Assembly (NCBI GenBank): GCA_020532085.1
Contig: JAJBAV010000018.1
Coordinates: 1-53,800, forward strand
Source of the DNA: Candidatus Cloacimonadota bacterium
GTDB lineage: Bacteria; Cloacimonadota; Cloacimonadia; Cloacimonadales; Cloacimonadaceae
DNA length: 53,800 bases
Direction: 5' to 3'
This document shows positions 44,782 through 53,793 of the stretch, piece after piece; position 1 is the stretch's first letter, and each line of letters begins with the position of its first letter. The notes beneath the pieces were generated by a model, which was not told where the DNA came from, ran no database searches, and saw only the letters and a program-made list of their open reading frames with translations. Made by a program: the position numbers and the translations under genes.

Positions 44782-44934
44782 TGTATAAACTGACACCCAA
44801 AGCTGCAAGTTGTGACACAAGGGGAAAGTGGGGATAAGGCTTTATGTGGTGGTGAGTTGCGATGGACTGGTTATGGAAATGTCCAAGCGCTGATTTGGAC
44901 GTATTTGGACTGTTTGCTGACACTATTACTGCAA
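44782..44934 (+). repeat. Putative left end with transposase-binding-type repeats
   Basis: CTGACAC followed by CTGCAA occurs at 44790-44808 and again at 44917-44934; TGTGACACAA lies at 44811-44820. Terminal TGT plus spaced TGACA-like repeats is the usual design of Mu/Tn7-superfamily ends (family knowledge). The exact terminus is inferred. Confidence 0.45.
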
Positions 44935-44954
44935 ATTAGCGAGGCGTTTGGACA
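44880..44954 (+). promoter_or_regulatory. TCCAAGCG-type sites left of the repressor
   Basis: TGTCCAAGCG at 44880-44889, the degenerate inverted TTTGGAC at 44894-44900 and 44904-44910, and CGTTTGGACA at 44945-44954 (reverse complement with one mismatch). They belong to the same motif family as those in the early gene. Confidence 0.55.
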
Positions 44955-44993
44955 AGCTTTGGAAAGAGCAGTTGGGAAATCGGAACTTTGAAA

Positions 44994-45749
44994 TTAGAAA
45001 AACCGCAATTGGAGTGCGATTGTGCCGATCAGGAAAGCTCCGTAATTCCAATCCGAGTCTAAAACAAGAACCGGATAGTCTATATTAAATGGTTGGAGGA
45101 CAATCTGTTGCCTGCGGTGATCGATCTGCACCTTCTTGATGGTGAGACCATCGTCAGTCCTTACAACTGCAATTTTACCATCAGCATTTTCCCAGCTCAG
45201 ATCACTCTTGATGACCACGATGTCCTGATGCTGGATCACGGGCTCCATGCTTCTGCCATTTACTTGAAAGACAGTGTATTGCTTGGGGTTGCCGGTCAGG
45301 AATGAGACTGGTAATTGGATCTGCCCCACCTGACTCCACTCGTCTTTGATCTCCATCGGCGGTCCGGCAGCTATCTCTCCAACTATGGGAAAGGTGATAG
45401 ATCTAGTGGGATCGAAGTCCTGATTGGTGATAGGGTGCAGGATTGGAGAGATTATGGTGGGGATTGAGCTGTCTGGATTGGTTGGGGGTGTAGGTGCCTG
45501 GATGGATTGGATGAGCTCTTGAAACTCATCTTTGGCATGCATGGAGCCGTTTCCTGTAAAGAGCCAGTGGATGTTGATCTGATCTTTGGAGAGTGCTTCT
45601 AAGAACTCCGGATCGGGATATCTCTCGTTTAGCTTGTAGCGGGAAAGCGAGGCACGGGAGATGCCATACTTAGTGGCAAACTGGTAATCCTTGAGTCGCA
45701 TGGCCTTAATCACCAAGCTAAGGCGTTGTCCGATAGTCGGTTTATTCAT
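44994..45749 (-). CDS. LexA/CI-like self-cleaving repressor
   Basis: A 251-residue repressor: an N-terminal XRE-type helix-turn-helix (~5-60; TIGQRLSLVIKAMRLK, YGISRASLSRYKLNER), a linker rich in Pro/Ser/Thr, and a C-terminal S24 peptidase domain. The cleavage site is probably A128-G129 (GEIAAGPP), the serine S167 in NGRSMEPV and the lysine K205 in LTIKKV. Such repressors are inactivated after DNA damage by RecA-stimulated self-cleavage (family knowledge). Start at 45749 is chosen over an ATG four codons earlier because GGAG lies 6 bases before it. It faces away from the transposition genes, as the c repressor does in Mu. Confidence 0.92.
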   Translation of the reverse strand: MNKPTIGQRLSLVIKAMRLKDYQFATKYGISRASLSRYKLNERYPDPEFLEALSKDQINIHWLFTGNGSMHAKDEFQELIQSIQAPTPPTNPDSSIPTIISPILHPITNQDFDPTRSITFPIVGEIAAGPPMEIKDEWSQVGQIQLPVSFLTGNPKQYTVFQVNGRSMEPVIQHQDIVVIKSDLSWENADGKIAVVRTDDGLTIKKVQIDHRRQQIVLQPFNIDYPVLVLDSDWNYGAFLIGTIALQLRFF

Positions 45750-45947
45750 CGTGAACTCCATGTAGAAACTTTGCTATTGACTATATCCGCATGGCTGCAA
45801 GATTAGTTCCAGATGCCATTCTGCTGCAAGGCGGTTTGGAGTCAATACTAAAGATTATAGTGTGACCCAGGTGGAATATAAAGTATTGCCGGAGAATGCG
45901 TAAGAAAGCTGGCAAACTCGCAGAAAAGACTTCCCAAGGTTCTGCGC

Positions 45948-45974
45948 TTGTAGTTCTTAGCACCCTACTAAATA
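45948..45974 (+). promoter_or_regulatory. Candidate early promoter of the transposition operon
   Basis: TTGTAG (45948-45953) and TAAATA (45969-45974) with a 15-base spacer lie just upstream of the early gene. The 240-base region between the divergent repressor and early genes must hold both promoters. Confidence 0.35.
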
Positions 45975-45991
45975 CATAAGAGAGGTGTAGA

Positions 45992-46564
45992 ATGACTACC
46001 AAGAAACAACGCCAAGCGGAAGTGCAGAAACGGGTGAATCAGGGCAATGTCCAAGCGGGTACCCCTGTCCAAGCGGGGGTAGGCATGAGGCTTAACTCAT
46101 TGATAACTATGATGAGAGGCCAAAATGTCCAAGCGCTTGAGCTCATTTTTCAAGATTCCCGGCTGAAAGGTCCAAGCGGGTCGCAGTATTTGAAGGATTT
46201 GGACATGGACATTAATGTGGATTTGATCTGGTTACCCATCGACAGGGTTGCCATGTTGCTGAACAAAAATCTGAAGACGATCAGAAGAATGGTCGATGCC
46301 GGGAAGCTGACCGCGCTCAAGCATCAGATCCCCACCAAGAACGGAGCCACGATCAAGACCTTTGTTCTGGCAACAGAGGAGATCATTCAGGCTGAGTATG
46401 ACAGATTCAGAGACAGCTTGCGCAAACCGGAGCTCTACTTTGAGGAAGAGATCGGTTTAGGTGAGCATGGCTACTCCAGCGTTTTCCTGGTCTATTACGA
46501 GAGCGGTAAGGATCTGGCTTCTAAGGTTAGCGAGAAAGCAGGAGGTTCAGATGTTTCCCTATAG
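45992..46564 (+). CDS. Early helix-turn-helix protein of the mobile element
   Basis: A 190-residue protein whose middle (IDRVAMLLNKNLKTIRRMVDAGKLTA, residues ~80-110, quoted in parts as DRVAMLLNKNLKTIRRMV) resembles an excisionase/MerR-type helix-turn-helix. The N-terminal 60 residues are low-complexity; their coding sequence carries four TCCAAGCG sites. It occupies the place of ner in Mu and overlaps the transposase start by 14 bases. It might be a regulator or an accessory DNA-binding subunit of the transposase (inference). Confidence 0.75.
   Translation: MTTKKQRQAEVQKRVNQGNVQAGTPVQAGVGMRLNSLITMMRGQNVQALELIFQDSRLKGPSGSQYLKDLDMDINVDLIWLPIDRVAMLLNKNLKTIRRMVDAGKLTALKHQIPTKNGATIKTFVLATEEIIQAEYDRFRDSLRKPELYFEEEIGLGEHGYSSVFLVYYESGKDLASKVSEKAGGSDVSL
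46048..46178 (+). promoter_or_regulatory. Cluster of TGTCCAAGCG sites inside the early gene
   Basis: Exact TGTCCAAGCG at 46048-46057, 46066-46075 and 46126-46135, and GGTCCAAGCG at 46169-46178. The first three encode VQA in one frame; the fourth is read in another frame as GPS, so the DNA word rather than the peptide is conserved. Confidence 0.65.
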
Positions 46565-49109
46565 CGGCAGACCGACTGAGGAGTTCCTGAGAGAGTATCG
46601 CAGTAAACTGAATGAACTGCAAGAACTGATGGAAAGCCAGGGACTAAAGCTGGAGATCAAGAGCGGTGGCAGATGTAAAGTAGCTCCAGAGGTAAAGGCT
46701 GGAATAGGCAAAGTTAGTGGTGAAGGTGATACGTCTGTCGATTATAGCTTCCTGCTCGGCTACCGCCAGCAGTACAATGCCAAGGCCAAAGATGATAGTT
46801 CAGAAGACGATCTGGAGTCAGAGACCGTCTATGAGACCTATGAAGACAATCTGGAGTTCGAGCGTAAACTCACCCTAATCCACGAAGCCAAGGAAAATGG
46901 TGTAGTGATCGACTTCGGCAGTGACTTTCTCGATCTGGCTCCGGTGGAAGAGGAAAGGCTGTTATACAGTGATGAAGCTCAACTCTACGGCAGGTTCTGC
47001 CAGGAAGTGATTCGCAGAGTATATGGAGCTGAGTCCAAAGTATTAGCTTGGAAACGGATCACCAGTGACTATAACGGCAAGAGACTGGTGCCGGAGCTCT
47101 ACAATCTCAAGGGACCCCGAAAAGAGCGGGCACTGCGAGAGTGGTTACGCGTTTACCATGAGACCAATCTGGATATGTATGCCCTGATCCATAAGAGCAA
47201 GGGCAAGTACAAAGAACGCAAGATCAGCTATCAGGAACAGCAGTATCTGCTGCACCTGCTGCTCAATCCCAATCGCATCAAAATCGGCTCTGCCATCACC
47301 AACCTCAAACAGATGAGCAGAAACAAAATAATAGAATCCGAAACCAATGAACGGACGCTTAGACGCTGGTGCGAGGAATGGGCTGCCAGGCATCCGGCAG
47401 AGTGGCATCAGGCCAGGGATGGCAGCAAGTATGTTTCTGAGCGGATAATCAAGTCTATCCGCAGAGACGATAGTACTCTCAAGGTAGGTGAAGTTTGGGT
47501 GGCAGATGGACATACCCTCTCCTTCGATATCCTCAATCCCCAGACCGGCAGAGCCCAACGCATGACGATGATCATGGTGATGGACTGGGCAAGTAGGTAT
47601 CCGGTGGGAGCCTCACTCGCCTTCACTGAAGATAGCCAGCATATCCTCACTGCCTTCCGTAATGGCTTTATCAACTGCGCCCAGATCGCAGATAACAATA
47701 GCGGAACGATGGCAGTGCTACCAAAGTATGTCTATCTGGATAACGGCAAAGCCTTCCGAGCCAAACTCTTTCATGAGAAATGGGAAGAGCATGATCTGAA
47801 CAAAGAACTGGGTGGCATCTTTCCCAGACTCAATATCGGAGTAAGATTCGCCGAGAGCTACAATGCCAAAGCCAAGATCATCGAACGCTTCTTCAAGACC
47901 TTCCAGGAGCAGTTTGAGCGGTTCATCACTACCTTTAGAGGCGCATCGATTGACGACAAGCCATCTGTGCTGAATCGCAATGAAGTCTGGGCAAAGAAGA
48001 TCTATACCGGTAAGCCACCTACCATTGAAGAGACAATGCAGATGATCGCCTTCTATGTGAGATTCTGTTATGGAGAGACACCGCATAGCTCACTCAACAG
48101 ACGCACACCCTATGAGGTCTTCAGTGCTGCCAGGATAGCCGAGAGTCGCCAGATAGAGATCTCCAGGCTCAACTTCCTGATGATGGCGATGGAACGCAAG
48201 AATATCCGCGCGGAGGGTATCAGGTTGGATAAAAAGGTCTACTGGCACCGGGAACTTGTTAATCATGTGGGACAGCCCTGTATCATCAGGTTCGATTACA
48301 GCGATGCCAGGTGGATCGTGGTCTATGACAAGAACGATGTCTTCATCTGCCAGGCTGCACTAAGAAAGACGCAGCATCCCTTCATTGAAGTCTCGATGGA
48401 CAAGGCAGTCTCGCATAAGGAACTGAACAAGGAATACAAAGAGATCAAGGGTCTTAGACGAGAGAAAGAACGCAGTGCCAAGAAGTGGGTGATCAACTCG
48501 CAGAAGGCTGTCGATAAGATACTGAGCAACTCCCCATCTAAGCAGGAGAAGTTTGAGGATCAGGGTGCCAGAGCGCTCTTCAGCAGTCCTTCCATGCTGG
48601 AAGCACCACCTAAGGATAGTGACGAGATCATCGAGGAGATGACCAGAAAGATGATGATGAGACAGCCCAAACATCCGGATATGCTGAGTCCGGAAGAACG
48701 GGAGAAGCTTGATGCGGAAGAGAAGGAGAGATTGGCAGAGCAGGAGAGGGATAGGATAATCCTCAAGGAAATCAAAGAATCGTTCGACCGTATAGGGCTC
48801 GAATACCAGACTAGTAATGATAAGCCTCCCCTGGAGTTTGCGATCGGCTTCAGCCAAACAGCCAGAGAGTACTACAAAGCTCAACAAAGAGCCCAGGTTG
48901 AACAAGAAGCATCAGATGAAGCACCCACTGCCACCGCAACAAAAGATGCCACAGGTATAGAATCTGAAGATCATGATCCAGCGGAAAAGATCTCCAACCC
49001 AGCAGAATTGCCTGATGATAAGCAATCACAGGATGAGGCCAAGAATGGGCAGTCACCATTCGCACACCTCTCCAGAGCGGAACTCCTCAAACGCATCGGG
49101 ATAAATTAG
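46551..49109 (+). CDS. DDE transposase, MuA/TniA type
   Basis: An 852-residue transposase. The N-terminal ~300 residues are DNA-binding, followed by an integrase-core (RNase H-like) domain with D319 in VADGH, D397 in YLDNGK and E445 in KIIERFF, and a Mu-type C-terminal beta-barrel (~600-660). The last ~200 residues are charged and helical with a run rich in Glu and Lys, probably contacting the AAA ATPase as in Mu. ATG at 46551 with GGAGG 5 bases upstream is chosen; a longer in-frame extension lies inside the previous gene. Its GC content is visibly lower than that of the housekeeping block. Confidence 0.93.
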   Translation: MFPYSGRPTEEFLREYRSKLNELQELMESQGLKLEIKSGGRCKVAPEVKAGIGKVSGEGDTSVDYSFLLGYRQQYNAKAKDDSSEDDLESETVYETYEDNLEFERKLTLIHEAKENGVVIDFGSDFLDLAPVEEERLLYSDEAQLYGRFCQEVIRRVYGAESKVLAWKRITSDYNGKRLVPELYNLKGPRKERALREWLRVYHETNLDMYALIHKSKGKYKERKISYQEQQYLLHLLLNPNRIKIGSAITNLKQMSRNKIIESETNERTLRRWCEEWAARHPAEWHQARDGSKYVSERIIKSIRRDDSTLKVGEVWVADGHTLSFDILNPQTGRAQRMTMIMVMDWASRYPVGASLAFTEDSQHILTAFRNGFINCAQIADNNSGTMAVLPKYVYLDNGKAFRAKLFHEKWEEHDLNKELGGIFPRLNIGVRFAESYNAKAKIIERFFKTFQEQFERFITTFRGASIDDKPSVLNRNEVWAKKIYTGKPPTIEETMQMIAFYVRFCYGETPHSSLNRRTPYEVFSAARIAESRQIEISRLNFLMMAMERKNIRAEGIRLDKKVYWHRELVNHVGQPCIIRFDYSDARWIVVYDKNDVFICQAALRKTQHPFIEVSMDKAVSHKELNKEYKEIKGLRREKERSAKKWVINSQKAVDKILSNSPSKQEKFEDQGARALFSSPSMLEAPPKDSDEIIEEMTRKMMMRQPKHPDMLSPEEREKLDAEEKERLAEQERDRIILKEIKESFDRIGLEYQTSNDKPPLEFAIGFSQTAREYYKAQQRAQVEQEASDEAPTATATKDATGIESEDHDPAEKISNPAELPDDKQSQDEAKNGQSPFAHLSRAELLKRIGIN

Positions 49110-49118
49110 GAGGATAAC

Positions 49119-49829
49119 ATGAAACAGGGAACACTCGTCAGAACGCAGAACGTGATAGCCGCAGACAAATGCATCGAATACCTGCTAACCAGACCTAAGC
49201 TGGAGATGGTGGGGCTTGGATTGCTGTATGGCAGACCAGGCCCGGGAAAGACCACCTATGCGAGTCGGATTGCTTTCAGTAAGGGCTATCTATATGTCCG
49301 GCTGGAGGCAACTACCACTCCCAAGGCTTTCGCATCCAAGCTGCTCTTAGCCTTATACAAGAGATTTGGCATGGGAGAATACATCCCCTACGGAACAGCC
49401 AATGACCTCTTCATGATGTGTATAACCCTTCTGGAGGATCACAAGGATACGATCATAGTTGTTGATGAAATTGACTACGCCTTCCGACACCCACAGCTCT
49501 TGGGAGCGATCAGGGATATCGTGGATGTGACCACAGCGATAGTGATCCTGGTCGGAATGCAGAATGCCAAGGATAAACTCAATCAGATCAACGAGTATTA
49601 CTTCGATAGATGCAATTTCTTCTATGAGTTCCAAGACCTACCCAAGAAGGACATTGCAGAACTATGCAGTGAGGTTTTGGAGATCAAGTTCCATTCTGAC
49701 ATAGTCGACTATGTCCACTTCCACTCTTGCGGTAATGTCCGCAAAGCCATGAAGCTCATCCGCTCTGTGGAAGAGATAGGCAGATACAAGAACCTTGAAC
49801 TGGTTACCCAAGCCGATCTGGATGACTGA
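49119..49829 (+). CDS. MuB/TniB-like AAA ATPase
   Basis: A 236-residue ATPase that in related elements binds target DNA and activates the transposase. Walker A is GRPGPGKTT (residues 38-46), Walker B IIVVDEID (112-119), and a GNVRKAM segment near 205 resembles sensor 2. It lacks the N-terminal helix-turn-helix of MuB and is closer in size to TniB/IstB-type proteins. It starts 9 bases after the transposase gene with GGAGG upstream. Confidence 0.9.
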   Translation: MKQGTLVRTQNVIAADKCIEYLLTRPKLEMVGLGLLYGRPGPGKTTYASRIAFSKGYLYVRLEATTTPKAFASKLLLALYKRFGMGEYIPYGTANDLFMMCITLLEDHKDTIIVVDEIDYAFRHPQLLGAIRDIVDVTTAIVILVGMQNAKDKLNQINEYYFDRCNFFYEFQDLPKKDIAELCSEVLEIKFHSDIVDYVHFHSCGNVRKAMKLIRSVEEIGRYKNLELVTQADLDD

Positions 49830-50513: not shown

Positions 50514-51176
50514 TCATAATATAATGGCCAATGCAATAGCCACTATGGCTGCAAGTGTCAAAGCATAATTTATCATCAATACCCGTTTTATACTTGCGTT
50601 AGTAGCTTCGAGTGCATCAATTATTCCTCTTAGAGTTATCTCAAGTTTTTCAGAAACAGTTTTAGCTGCTGAGTCGAGCTTGATGGATATCTTTTGATCC
50701 AGTTCCATAAGTCTGCTTTCAAATCCGGTTATCAATGTACTTGAGTTGGTATTCCAGGTTTCGTAACTTTCATTCAATTGAGTTACAAACGTATCGATCT
50801 TCTTTGAAGTGTCTTCCGCAATCTCGTTCAGATCAACCCCAAGGCTGGTCATGGTCACCTTAAAGGAGGCTAAGATATCTTTAAAGGTTTCTATCTTTTC
50901 TGCCAATTCAGCGGTGTTCTCAGATTGCTCCTTGGTAAAATCCTCATATTGGTTGGTTAGATCATCAAGGTTATGGGAAATAAATACTCGGTATTCATTT
51001 ACCGAATTTGTGATTTGGTCATTAAGGGCAGCAAGTTGGTTTATTTTGTCCTGCTGTCCATCCAATTGGGCCCGAAGAGATCCGGATGTACCCTCAAGTT
51101 CTTCGATGTTGTTTTTGATTTTGTTAATAAGAGTGGATAGACTGCCTGCAAATTCTTGTACATCCTTGTTTTCCAT
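50514..51176 (-). CDS. Coiled-coil protein with C-terminal membrane anchor
   Basis: A 220-residue protein, nearly all predicted coiled coil (repeated heptads such as LSTLINKIKNNIEELEG, LAEKIETFKDILASF, MELDQKISIKLDSAAKT), ending in one hydrophobic helix (VLMINYALTLAAIVAIALAI), so it is tail-anchored. ATG at 51176 with GGAG 6 bases upstream starts one base after the RecQ-like stop, so the two are translated together; the longer frame upstream lies within that gene. No enzymatic motif is seen. In paired defence systems such membrane coiled-coil proteins often act as effector or sensor (family knowledge, applied here only as inference). Confidence 0.8.
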   Translation of the reverse strand: MENKDVQEFAGSLSTLINKIKNNIEELEGTSGSLRAQLDGQQDKINQLAALNDQITNSVNEYRVFISHNLDDLTNQYEDFTKEQSENTAELAEKIETFKDILASFKVTMTSLGVDLNEIAEDTSKKIDTFVTQLNESYETWNTNSSTLITGFESRLMELDQKISIKLDSAAKTVSEKLEITLRGIIDALEATNASIKRVLMINYALTLAAIVAIALAIIL

Positions 51177-51177
51177 G

Positions 51178-53793
51178 TTAATCTCCTTTAACTGTTTTCG
51201 AGATGGACTGGGTTGCACTGGCCAAATAGGCCAGCGTTTCAAGATTATTGAAATCATATCCGGTTGTCTGATGAAGGTGGTTTTCAAAATCCGGCATTTC
51301 TTCACTAACACTATGCCAAAATGTCCCCAGAAGTGCCTTGAATTCTTTGAAACCAAGCAGTTCACTTCTGCTTTCCAAATACAGGGATACACCCTTTAGC
51401 AGCTCTTTCGTGCCTTGATTGAACTCCAATGTCTTTTTCTTGGAGATGATGATATTGGTGAACGCATTTAGAATATGAAGGCTGTAATTGTTTGGATTGT
51501 CGTTCAGAAGCCTTATACACGCACCACGAAGTTCCTTGCAATTAGGGATTAGGCCACCGGCATCATTCTTTACGATGTCGATAAACAGGGTTATAATATC
51601 TTCACTTTGCACTTTGCCCCGTTCTGTGGCATTGGTAAGGGAAGCCTCTCTTCCGTCCGGGGTGAAGTAATTATCCCGGAAGTATTTGGAACTGAAATAC
51701 ACATCGATGTATTCACGAAAATTTTCCGAAAGAGGATCCGAATCCTGATTATCCAGTCCATAGCGGCAAGCAAAATCCATGTCCGAGATGGCTTGTTCTC
51801 TCTTCTTTTTTATATAGTTATGCTCAAACTCAATGTAATATCTTATCAGATCGCTGTAGTTTGGCTTATCCTTGTTTTTGAAGAACTCATCTACCATTAT
51901 CTGCGCTTTTTTCTCAGTAAAGTACCTCATCAGATAGTTTTTCATGGTTGTTGTCAATGATTCCCTTTCCTTTGGGGTTATGGTCAGCCGGTAAACTGTT
52001 GATTTGCGATATTCTATCGTATAATCATCAATTACACCAACCAAAGCAAGCCTGTAGATGATCTTACCAAAGACAGTCTTGTTTTTTCTTTTACCAACCC
52101 CAATGTATTCTGTATATGAACTATCGTCCGAATCTACTTCGATCACAAAATCCCGTTTACGACCCTTGTCCCGTAAACAGTCGTTGATTGACTTATTCTC
52201 GGTTTTATCTTTGTAATTTAGTATCTTCTTAGTAAGTTCAAGCTCCCGTTGAACCTCAAGGTAGTTATTATCGTGTAGATACCTTGGTACTTCCATATCC
52301 AGATCTGAATACATCAGGTATGCCAGCGCGAGCTTCCTGTCTCGGCCTATGCGCCCAGTCTCCTGCGAGAAACCTTCTATCGAACCAGGAAAGTTCAAAT
52401 GCACGCTGAAACGGATGTTGGGCTTATTGAAACCCATACCGAAAGCTTTGGTCGCGACCATCAGGTTGATCCTGTTCTCCTTGTATAAACGTTGATAGTC
52501 CTCCATGCTGCTATCTTTGAAGTCTGATTCCAAACCTCCCCTATAATAGCCTGGTTTGATGTTCCTTTCGATTTGAAGCTCCCTCGCCAGAAACTCATAA
52601 GTTCCGGTAACTGGATTATCAGTTTTCTGACCAACCTTTGTGCTAACTCCCAGTACACCAGTGGCATGGGGGCAGAACACTATGATTCCTGTCTCATCGT
52701 TAAGTTTTATACCGGTATTGCCATTAATCAGGAAGTTCTTGCTTTCCTGACCCAAGGTTCTGTTGACACTATTTATATCCTCAATCAAGCGATCATTTAA
52801 CAGACTGAGGAGTTCTTGTCTCTTGGCCAATTTAATCGACTCAATTTTTTTACCGTCTTCTGTGTTTTTTTTGGCTGAAAACCTGATGAATTTATAGACT
52901 ATCTCATCCCGTTTGAGGGAAAGTGCTTTTTCTACTTGGATTGGTTTTTGGGATTTGATTTCCAACTCAGCTTGGACGTCGGTCAGAACATCAAAAGAGG
53001 CGGTTGCAGTAAGCCCGATGACCGTGATATCTCCGGCATCAAAGGGTTTGCAAAACCTATTGGCATTAGCTGCCAGGCTCAGATAGCTGGGCCGAAAGTC
53101 GTGGCCCCATTCAGAAACACAATGGGCTTCGTCAACCACGAAATAGTTAAAATAGTTATCTTCAGCGGCCATGTCCATCAATGCGTTGCGAAACTCCTGG
53201 ATCTGCATTCTTTCGGGTGAGATCAAGGTAAACAAGCTTTGCCCCGATAGCATTTTGAACTCTGCGGTCGCTTTATCAGCCTTGCTCTTATCAGAATTGA
53301 TGTAGACGGAATCTATCCCCAGCATCAGCATTTCGTCATATTGGTCCTTCATCAGGGACTTGATGGGCTCGATAACCAGGGCGAAGCCCGGCTGCATGAG
53401 AGCACTCAGTTGGTAGATGAGCGATTTTCCCCCGCCGGTTGGCAGCAGGCCAATCACAGAATCAAGTCTGAGGGCATGCCTCAGAATATCTAGCTGACCT
53501 TCAATGAACTTCTTTTTACGGAATAAAGTACGCAGGAAATACGTGAGAGAATACGTCGAAGCCTGGTCATATGCTTCTTCACTTACGTCATAGAGCCTGG
53601 AATATTTGATCAACTCCCTAGAATAGTACTTCCTCTGGTATTGATCATCATTTTTTGACCAATCCTGCCTGGTTAGGTAGCGTCTCAAAGGTTGGTGTAA
53701 AATAGGTAACGGCAGATGAAGAAAAAGGTTGAGCCAGATCCCGCTCTTTGTTTTGATGGTTTTGACAAAACTAACAGACAAGGAGACGATCAT
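51178..53793 (-). CDS. RecQ-like superfamily 2 helicase with long unknown C-terminus
   Basis: An 871-residue helicase. Motif [10 protein letters not shown] (~116-125), motif [18 protein letters not shown] (231-246, including the RecQ-specific aromatic loop), motif III GLTATA and motif [13 protein letters not shown] (~487) define the RecQ family. There is an insertion of ~80 residues between motifs III and IV. After residue ~510 there is no zinc-binding cysteine cluster and no HRDC domain; instead ~360 residues of charged helical sequence that I cannot assign. It is therefore not the housekeeping RecQ. The start at 53793 has an in-frame TGA two codons upstream; the ribosome-binding site is outside the window. 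Low GC compared with the chromosome suggests transfer. Confidence 0.85.

Follow-up and report, generated by a model that had tools for sequence, protein, structure and literature searches.

A ten-letter DNA word repeated at the left end and within the first early gene of a Mu-like element of Cloacimonadota, a candidate binding site for the wHTH protein that the element encodes

Why does one 10-letter word occur on both sides of a repressor gene and again inside the first early gene of a Candidatus Cloacimonadota bacterium, and which protein reads it? The window, i.e. the whole stretch of 53,800 nucleotides analysed here, contains all six copies of TGTCCAAGCG that the first-pass annotation had claimed, among them one with a mismatch at 46169 and one inverted at 44945 (Table 1). 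The reading frames were confirmed as well, namely VQA at three intragenic copies (in the contexts NVQAG, PVQAG and NVQAL) and GPS at 46169 (GPSG). In relatives, this fourth intragenic site is mostly TGTCCAAGCG or TGTCCAAGTG, and the G at its first position in the window is a local change. A genome-wide count of the exact word gave only seven copies in 2.81 Mb, four of them inside 1.3 kb, which rules out an abundant genomic motif. At least four exact copies within 1,299 bp have a Poisson probability of about 1.5e-13. If one mismatch is tolerated, the window holds 13 matches versus 4.4 expected, and the special feature is therefore the local cluster only.

The cluster sits in a Mu-like element whose close relatives were found in Candidatus Cloacimonadota genomes. 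Its genes are arranged in the order S24 repressor, small wHTH gene, DDE transposase, TniB/MuB-like ATPase and HTH protein. As in the Mu family, a transposase with a Mu-type C-terminal domain is accompanied by a MuB/TniB-like ATPase, and both ends, with their repeated transposase-type sites, could be defined. The right-end data stem from relatives only, as the window's own right end falls beyond the contig. The left edge is abrupt at about 44784-44791 in an alignment of 10 relatives with different flanks, and the block of the first end site, L1, was also found in about 30 further elements. The second site, L2, is located between the two left-end words. Six relatives have in common a right end of about 165 bp with the tip TTTGCAGTTTTCGTTGTCAC, which resembles the inverted left tip and follows a tandem array of similar sites. 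By eye, CATAT, a possible 5-bp target duplication, was visible on both flanks in G001, and none in G022 or G012. Judged by their sequence, the constant TGACA..CTGCAA sites are likely the transposase sites, and their motif is distinct from the word. The word is absent from the right ends of relatives and was consequently rejected as a transposase end site.

Three further features of the non-coding parts are conserved. The direct pair of TTTGGACGTTTTTGGACG near the left end has its units 10 bp apart and is common to the left ends of every word class. Between the repressor gene and the small gene, TTGAC and GTCAA face each other at a distance of 63–65 bp in nearly all of 17 elements checked; the exceptions are L103, which is without GTCAA in the tested stretch, and L079 with a gap of 74 bp. 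Promoter-like spacing surrounds this pair in many elements, the promoter scan being weak in the window itself, and the pair likely represents the -35 elements of the early and repressor promoters. Upstream of the small gene, a leader block (AAAGGACTTCCCAAG..GTAGCACCC, 45920-45966 of the window) is conserved across word classes and may act in regulation, as RNA or as DNA.

Table 1. Features of the Mu-like element in the window, with positions in the whole stretch.
Feature	Position	Strand	Evidence or remark
Left tip TATAAAC with L1, a transposase-type end site, TGACACCCAAAGCTGCAAG (44791-44809)	44784..44810	+	sharp homology start
Word copy 1, TGTCCAAGCG	44880..44889	+	left end; kept by all window-clade elements, bar a single-base change in L048
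Direct pair TTTGGACG/TTTGGACT	44894..44910	+	found with every word class; distinct from the word
Candidate second transposase-type end site L2, TGACACTATTACTGCAA	44918..44934	+	same pattern as L1 and right-end array
Word copy 2, inverted, one mismatch, TGTCCAAACG	44945..44954	-	left end; invariant among window-clade elements
S24/HTH_3 repressor	44994..45761	-	Pfam PF00717 1.3e-17, HTH_3 1.7e-4; phrog_4 transcriptional repressor 7e-30
Face-to-face TTGAC (45777) and GTCAA (45841), 64 bp apart	45777..45845	.	no word copies here
Small early gene: array-bearing disordered linker, then wHTH domain (46214-46417)	45992..46564	+	AF2; HTH_17 in 30/34 relatives
Word copy 3, exact TGTCCAAGCG	46048..46057	+	intragenic, VQA frame
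Word copy 4, exact TGTCCAAGCG	46066..46075	+	intragenic
Word copy 5, exact TGTCCAAGCG	46126..46135	+	intragenic
Word copy 6, one mismatch, GGTCCAAGCG	46169..46178	+	intragenic, another frame (GPS)
Degenerate inverted word copy, TGTCCAAATC	46196..46205	-	intragenic; beyond the copies of the first-pass annotation
Mu-family DDE transposase	46551..49109	+	Mu-transpos_C 1.6e-14; phrog_310 transposase 1e-75
TniB/MuB-like AAA ATPase	49119..49829	+	AAA_22 3e-12, TniB 1.8e-5; phrog_296 DNA transposition protein 1e-21
HTH protein of 168 aa	49834..50340	+	last core-operon gene

Close relatives were compared for conservation of the sites versus the peptide. About nine elements keep position and spacing, with the left pair 65 bp apart and then 18, 60 and 43 bp between the intragenic copies. 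In the intragenic part, 4 of 40 positions are variable within the words versus 91 of 200 outside. The difference holds for third codon positions, which vary at 1/15 in the words and at 36/65 outside (P = 5e-4). The open reading frames of relatives carry words on both strands, and switches of the word accompany changes of the peptide; in one relative, L077, eight identical words were retained at the expense of the peptide. These data bear out the earlier claim that selection is on the DNA.

The word recurs in about 35 relatives as one to three left-end and 4–11 intragenic copies, often on both strands, the left-end counts covering those of 35 tabulated elements whose left end was in sequence. 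The promoter gap between repressor and small gene is free of word copies in 34 of the 35. Most of the further elements have a transposase with 46–60% identity and show the same layout with a different word. The versions found are TGTCCAAGCG, forms ending in -GTG and -GTCC, TGTCACAGTG, TGTCACACCG and TGTCAAAGTG, which differ even inside one genome; distant relatives use TGTCCAAGTG, TGTCCAAGTCC, TGTCACAGTG, TGTCACAGAG, TGTCACACCG and TGTCAAAGTG. The left-end word equals the element's own array word in 29 of 31 elements, compared to 0 of 38 matches with coexisting elements of a different class in the same genome. The shuffle P value for this comparison takes no account of how the elements are related. 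As several words coexist in one genome, a host factor cannot explain the word, and a host-factor site was ruled out. The array is patchy in relatives at 38–48% identity and was not found in those at 30–36%. In the window's own genome, the more distant element L108 (contig C28) has a different intragenic array with ten copies of GTGCGGAACC, read as AEPECGTKS peptide repeats. The same genome also holds two remnant left ends with no evident element adjoining, L057 (C9:51441), in which homology ends at about the first word, and L059 (C1:207950).

The small early protein consists of a variable linker followed by a confidently predicted wHTH fold (AF2 pLDDT of 94 for the wHTH and below 50 for residues 1-35). 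The protein is separate from the transposase and does not represent its N-terminus. With the wHTH fragment, the nearest folds in Foldseek include BldC, P2 Cox (probability 1.00) and Pukovnik Xis (0.98), the latter two being weak matches (E 0.04–0.1, TM about 0.5). The Pfam match to Phage_Cox is likewise weak, and Foldseek with the full small protein was uninformative.

The word co-varies with the recognition helix of this protein, which reads KTxRR with TGTCC words and RTxWR with TG[TG]CA words. Residues 95 and 98 (K/R versus R/W) are split perfectly by TGTCC versus TGTCA words in 36 elements. On viral contigs with readable arrays, 15/15 KTxRR proteins go with TGTCC words and 20/20 RTxWR proteins with TG[TG]CA words (L259, whose sequence stops before the array, was left out of this count). 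No column of TniB or of the HTH protein downstream is disjoint between elements with TGTCC and those with TGTCA words; in the repressor, two columns split with one side uniform, both of them outside its recognition helix. The classes of the word require seven changes on the wHTH tree and nine on the repressor tree, with a minimum of six. Overall, the word tracks the wHTH better than the repressor, transposase, TniB or downstream HTH protein. On the tree, the deep TGTCC/TG[TG]CA split arose only once, and the HTH residues of the repressor differ across it as well, so that this node cannot separate wHTH from repressor. The data contain few independent word switches, and array and wHTH co-vary partly because they are co-inherited within one gene. 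Residue 112 (Q with GTG) was considered as specificity residue for the 3' end of the word and dropped, being perfect in the first set and broken by L249. The outlying RTxWR protein of L237 with its TGTCA word was rejected as an independent switch since the tree allows only one change, and is neutral.

We favour the reading in which the word is recognised by the wHTH that the element itself encodes, a Xis/Cox-like protein using enhancer-like intragenic sites, and not a repressor operator, with a probability of roughly 0.6. The wHTH protein would bind the left-end copies, beside and between L1 and L2, and also the cluster within the gene that encodes it, some 1.2 kb deeper into the element. It would bridge or wrap both places and so shape the left end of a transposition complex, in the manner of the Mu enhancer. 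When accumulating, it would probably damp its own operon. Its N-terminal part would serve as a tolerant linker, the codons of which are bent to preserve the DNA sites. The sites, their conservation, their joint change and their co-variation with the recognition helix of the wHTH were observed; both the binding itself and an enhancer-like assembly rather than regulation only are deduced. The bipartite layout of left-end copies and intragenic array, repeated in about 35 elements, argues for this reading, together with the agreement of left-end and array words, the co-variation with the helix, the case of L077, the fold and the conserved third codon positions. The site spacings, which differ from the 10–11 bp of Xis/Cox sites, argue against it, as do the old word at the left end of L077 and the elements that keep the words without a wHTH.

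Alternatively, the words could be operators of the S24 repressor, which would loop over its own gene and block early transcription downstream of the promoter. The two clusters flank the repressor gene, and the repressor's HTH residues differ between TGTCC and TGTCA elements. However, the promoter gap is devoid of copies, as mentioned, and holds the conserved TTGAC/GTCAA pair instead; moreover, the word changes more often on the repressor tree than on the wHTH tree. The element L077 is informative here. Compared with L082 and L095, it has the same single-base C-to-A change in 8 of 8 array copies, in both orientations. The encoded peptide is altered by it from C to F, T to K and V to L (CD becomes FD, VTV becomes VKV/L), and the recognition helix changes from WRY to WRR. 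L077 and L082 have almost the same repressor (99/97 support, path about 0.03), yet every array word differs. Thus, L077 separates repressor and wHTH as candidates. Its left-end copies still carry the old word. The same pair of WRR and TGTCAAAG was found in L242, a close relative of L077 and not an independent case. Since the words are in addition kept in elements without a repressor, we consider an operator function unlikely.

Eight such elements, which have neither repressor nor wHTH, keep the left-end words and the array (L083, L087, L088, L089, L091, L093, L094 and L098). Four of them (L091, L093, L094 and L098) carry the array as a fusion with the transposase reading frame, and L089, from the same genome as L077, has six copies of the new-type word. 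Under the wHTH reading, these elements would need help in trans. They fit a use of the words in trans by a full element, or could be decaying.

A role of the wHTH in autoregulation alone, by road-block or feedback as for Apl/Cox and without any part in transposition, appears improbable to us. The sites do lie in its own gene downstream of the early promoter, and Cox-like proteins come from the first early gene and regulate it (PMC7498355). The left-end copies, however, adjoin the transposase sites about 0.9 kb from the early promoter, where they have no obvious regulatory use, and they are retained in elements lacking the repressor. That the transposase, TniB or the HTH protein downstream binds the word is very doubtful. 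Every element has these proteins, even where repressor and wHTH are missing, and the left-end copies are next to transposase sites; against this, the transposase sites of both ends follow a different motif, which is constant, neither TniB nor the HTH protein has a column that splits the two classes, and the TniB of L073 is 75% identical to that of the window although the word is different. Selection for peptide repeats (VQA, CPSP, CDT/VTV) can practically be dismissed by the concerted change in L077 and the conserved third codon positions: three window copies do have one frame in common and the array of TGTCCAAGTCC elements reads as CPSP repeats, but the left ends, which are non-coding, have words too, copies are found on either strand and in a second reading frame, silent positions hardly vary, the linker has low predicted order, and L077 preserves word identity despite drastic residue changes.

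A tentative extension of the wHTH reading, to which we give rather less than even odds, is that the word acts as an element-specific address, a private wHTH/word pair by which an element would assemble its own ends and no others. A single genome contains many elements side by side, and their transposase end sites would be nearly interchangeable. A switch of address would require array copies, left-end copies and recognition helix to change together; L077, with the array switched and the left end not yet, and L089, with all copies switched and no wHTH of its own, might be snapshots of such a switch. If the wHTH reading is true, an enhancer-like recombination site lies wholly within the coding sequence of the protein that uses it, and the elements offer a natural series of co-evolved protein/DNA pairs as a test bed for changes of wHTH specificity. 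It would also bear on what Mu-like elements need a third site for, be it assembly, regulation or self-recognition among coexisting elements.

The first-pass annotation had likened the sites to the operator/internal enhancer of Mu, bound by both repressor and transposase. The position agrees, as the array (46048-46205) lies about 1.25 kb from the tip between repressor and transposase. The dual binding was not supported, given that the end sites differ, the promoter gap is almost always empty and the word tracks the wHTH better. In Mu, domain I-alpha of MuA binds the enhancer, a third site by which the ends are scaffolded (PMC3562280). Like the Mu enhancer (operator O1-O2), the array is an internal cis site near the left end, between a leftward repressor and a rightward transposition operon, in an element with DDE transposase and AAA ATPase that has transposable-phage relatives, and its likely binder is a wHTH-type protein. 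By analogy, it may be a Mu-type transpositional enhancer stimulating transposition in cis. In contrast to Mu, the sites are inside the first early ORF and not in the intergenic gap, the word is also present at the left end and varies from element to element. The wHTH forms a polypeptide by itself and not an N-terminal domain of the transposase; the Mu-type family HTH_Tnp_Mu_1 was not among the families listed. In Mu, the sites are also operators of the repressor, whose DNA-binding domain is homologous to that of the transposase; here, the repressor (HTH_3/S24) belongs to another family than the wHTH.

Apl and Cox are wHTH proteins from the first gene that bind repeated sites at the recombination end and elsewhere (PMC7498355). 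BldC (noted in PMC9938897), P2 Cox and Pukovnik Xis bind repeated sites cooperatively, which is cited here as support at the level of the fold. The window protein resembles Xis, Cox and Apl (P2 Cox, 186 Apl, Pukovnik Xis) and BldC in its small wHTH fold, which may be of the Xis/Cox type, in being encoded by the first gene of the early operon and in having candidate sites at the recombination end plus elsewhere. It differs from Xis/Cox/Apl in its partner, a DDE transposase and not a tyrosine integrase (there is no integrase among the core operon genes), in its extra C-terminal domain and array-bearing linker, and in the weak E-values. The spacing of 18/60/43 bp does not correspond to one helical turn as for Xis/Cox, and orientations are mixed in other elements. 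The window system is therefore a member of neither the Mu enhancers nor the Xis/Cox systems. CvkR, a MerR-type repressor of type V-K CAST transposons that binds a palindrome in promoters (PMC9938897), is likewise a wHTH regulator encoded by its own transposon, which belongs to the Tn7/Mu superfamily; here, in contrast, the word is non-palindromic and occurs in left end and coding sequence, with none in the promoter gap. A literature search on internal activation sequences and Cloacimonadota transposons returned nothing on this system.

Downstream of the core operon, the window element carries cargo, namely a coiled-coil protein with no clear family match (50514-51392) and a DpdF/RecQ-like helicase (51178-53793, PADLOC DpdF 6e-77). 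Its relatives carry 20–25 kb of cargo with defence-type genes (L043 8315-17414 and L064; L054/L069), including type I restriction, Hma methylase/ATPase, GmrSD, a type II methyltransferase and a UvrD helicase; restriction, methylation and other defence families were identified among the largest cargo proteins sampled in G022 and G018 of the window clade. Phage structural genes were sought with PHROGs, as the Mu portal family PF06074 gave no match anywhere, controls included. Viral contigs of about 32 kb (L251/L311-L313 and L233/L314-L315) combine the transposition module with portal, protease and tape-measure genes and are likely Mu-like transposable phages of Cloacimonadota.
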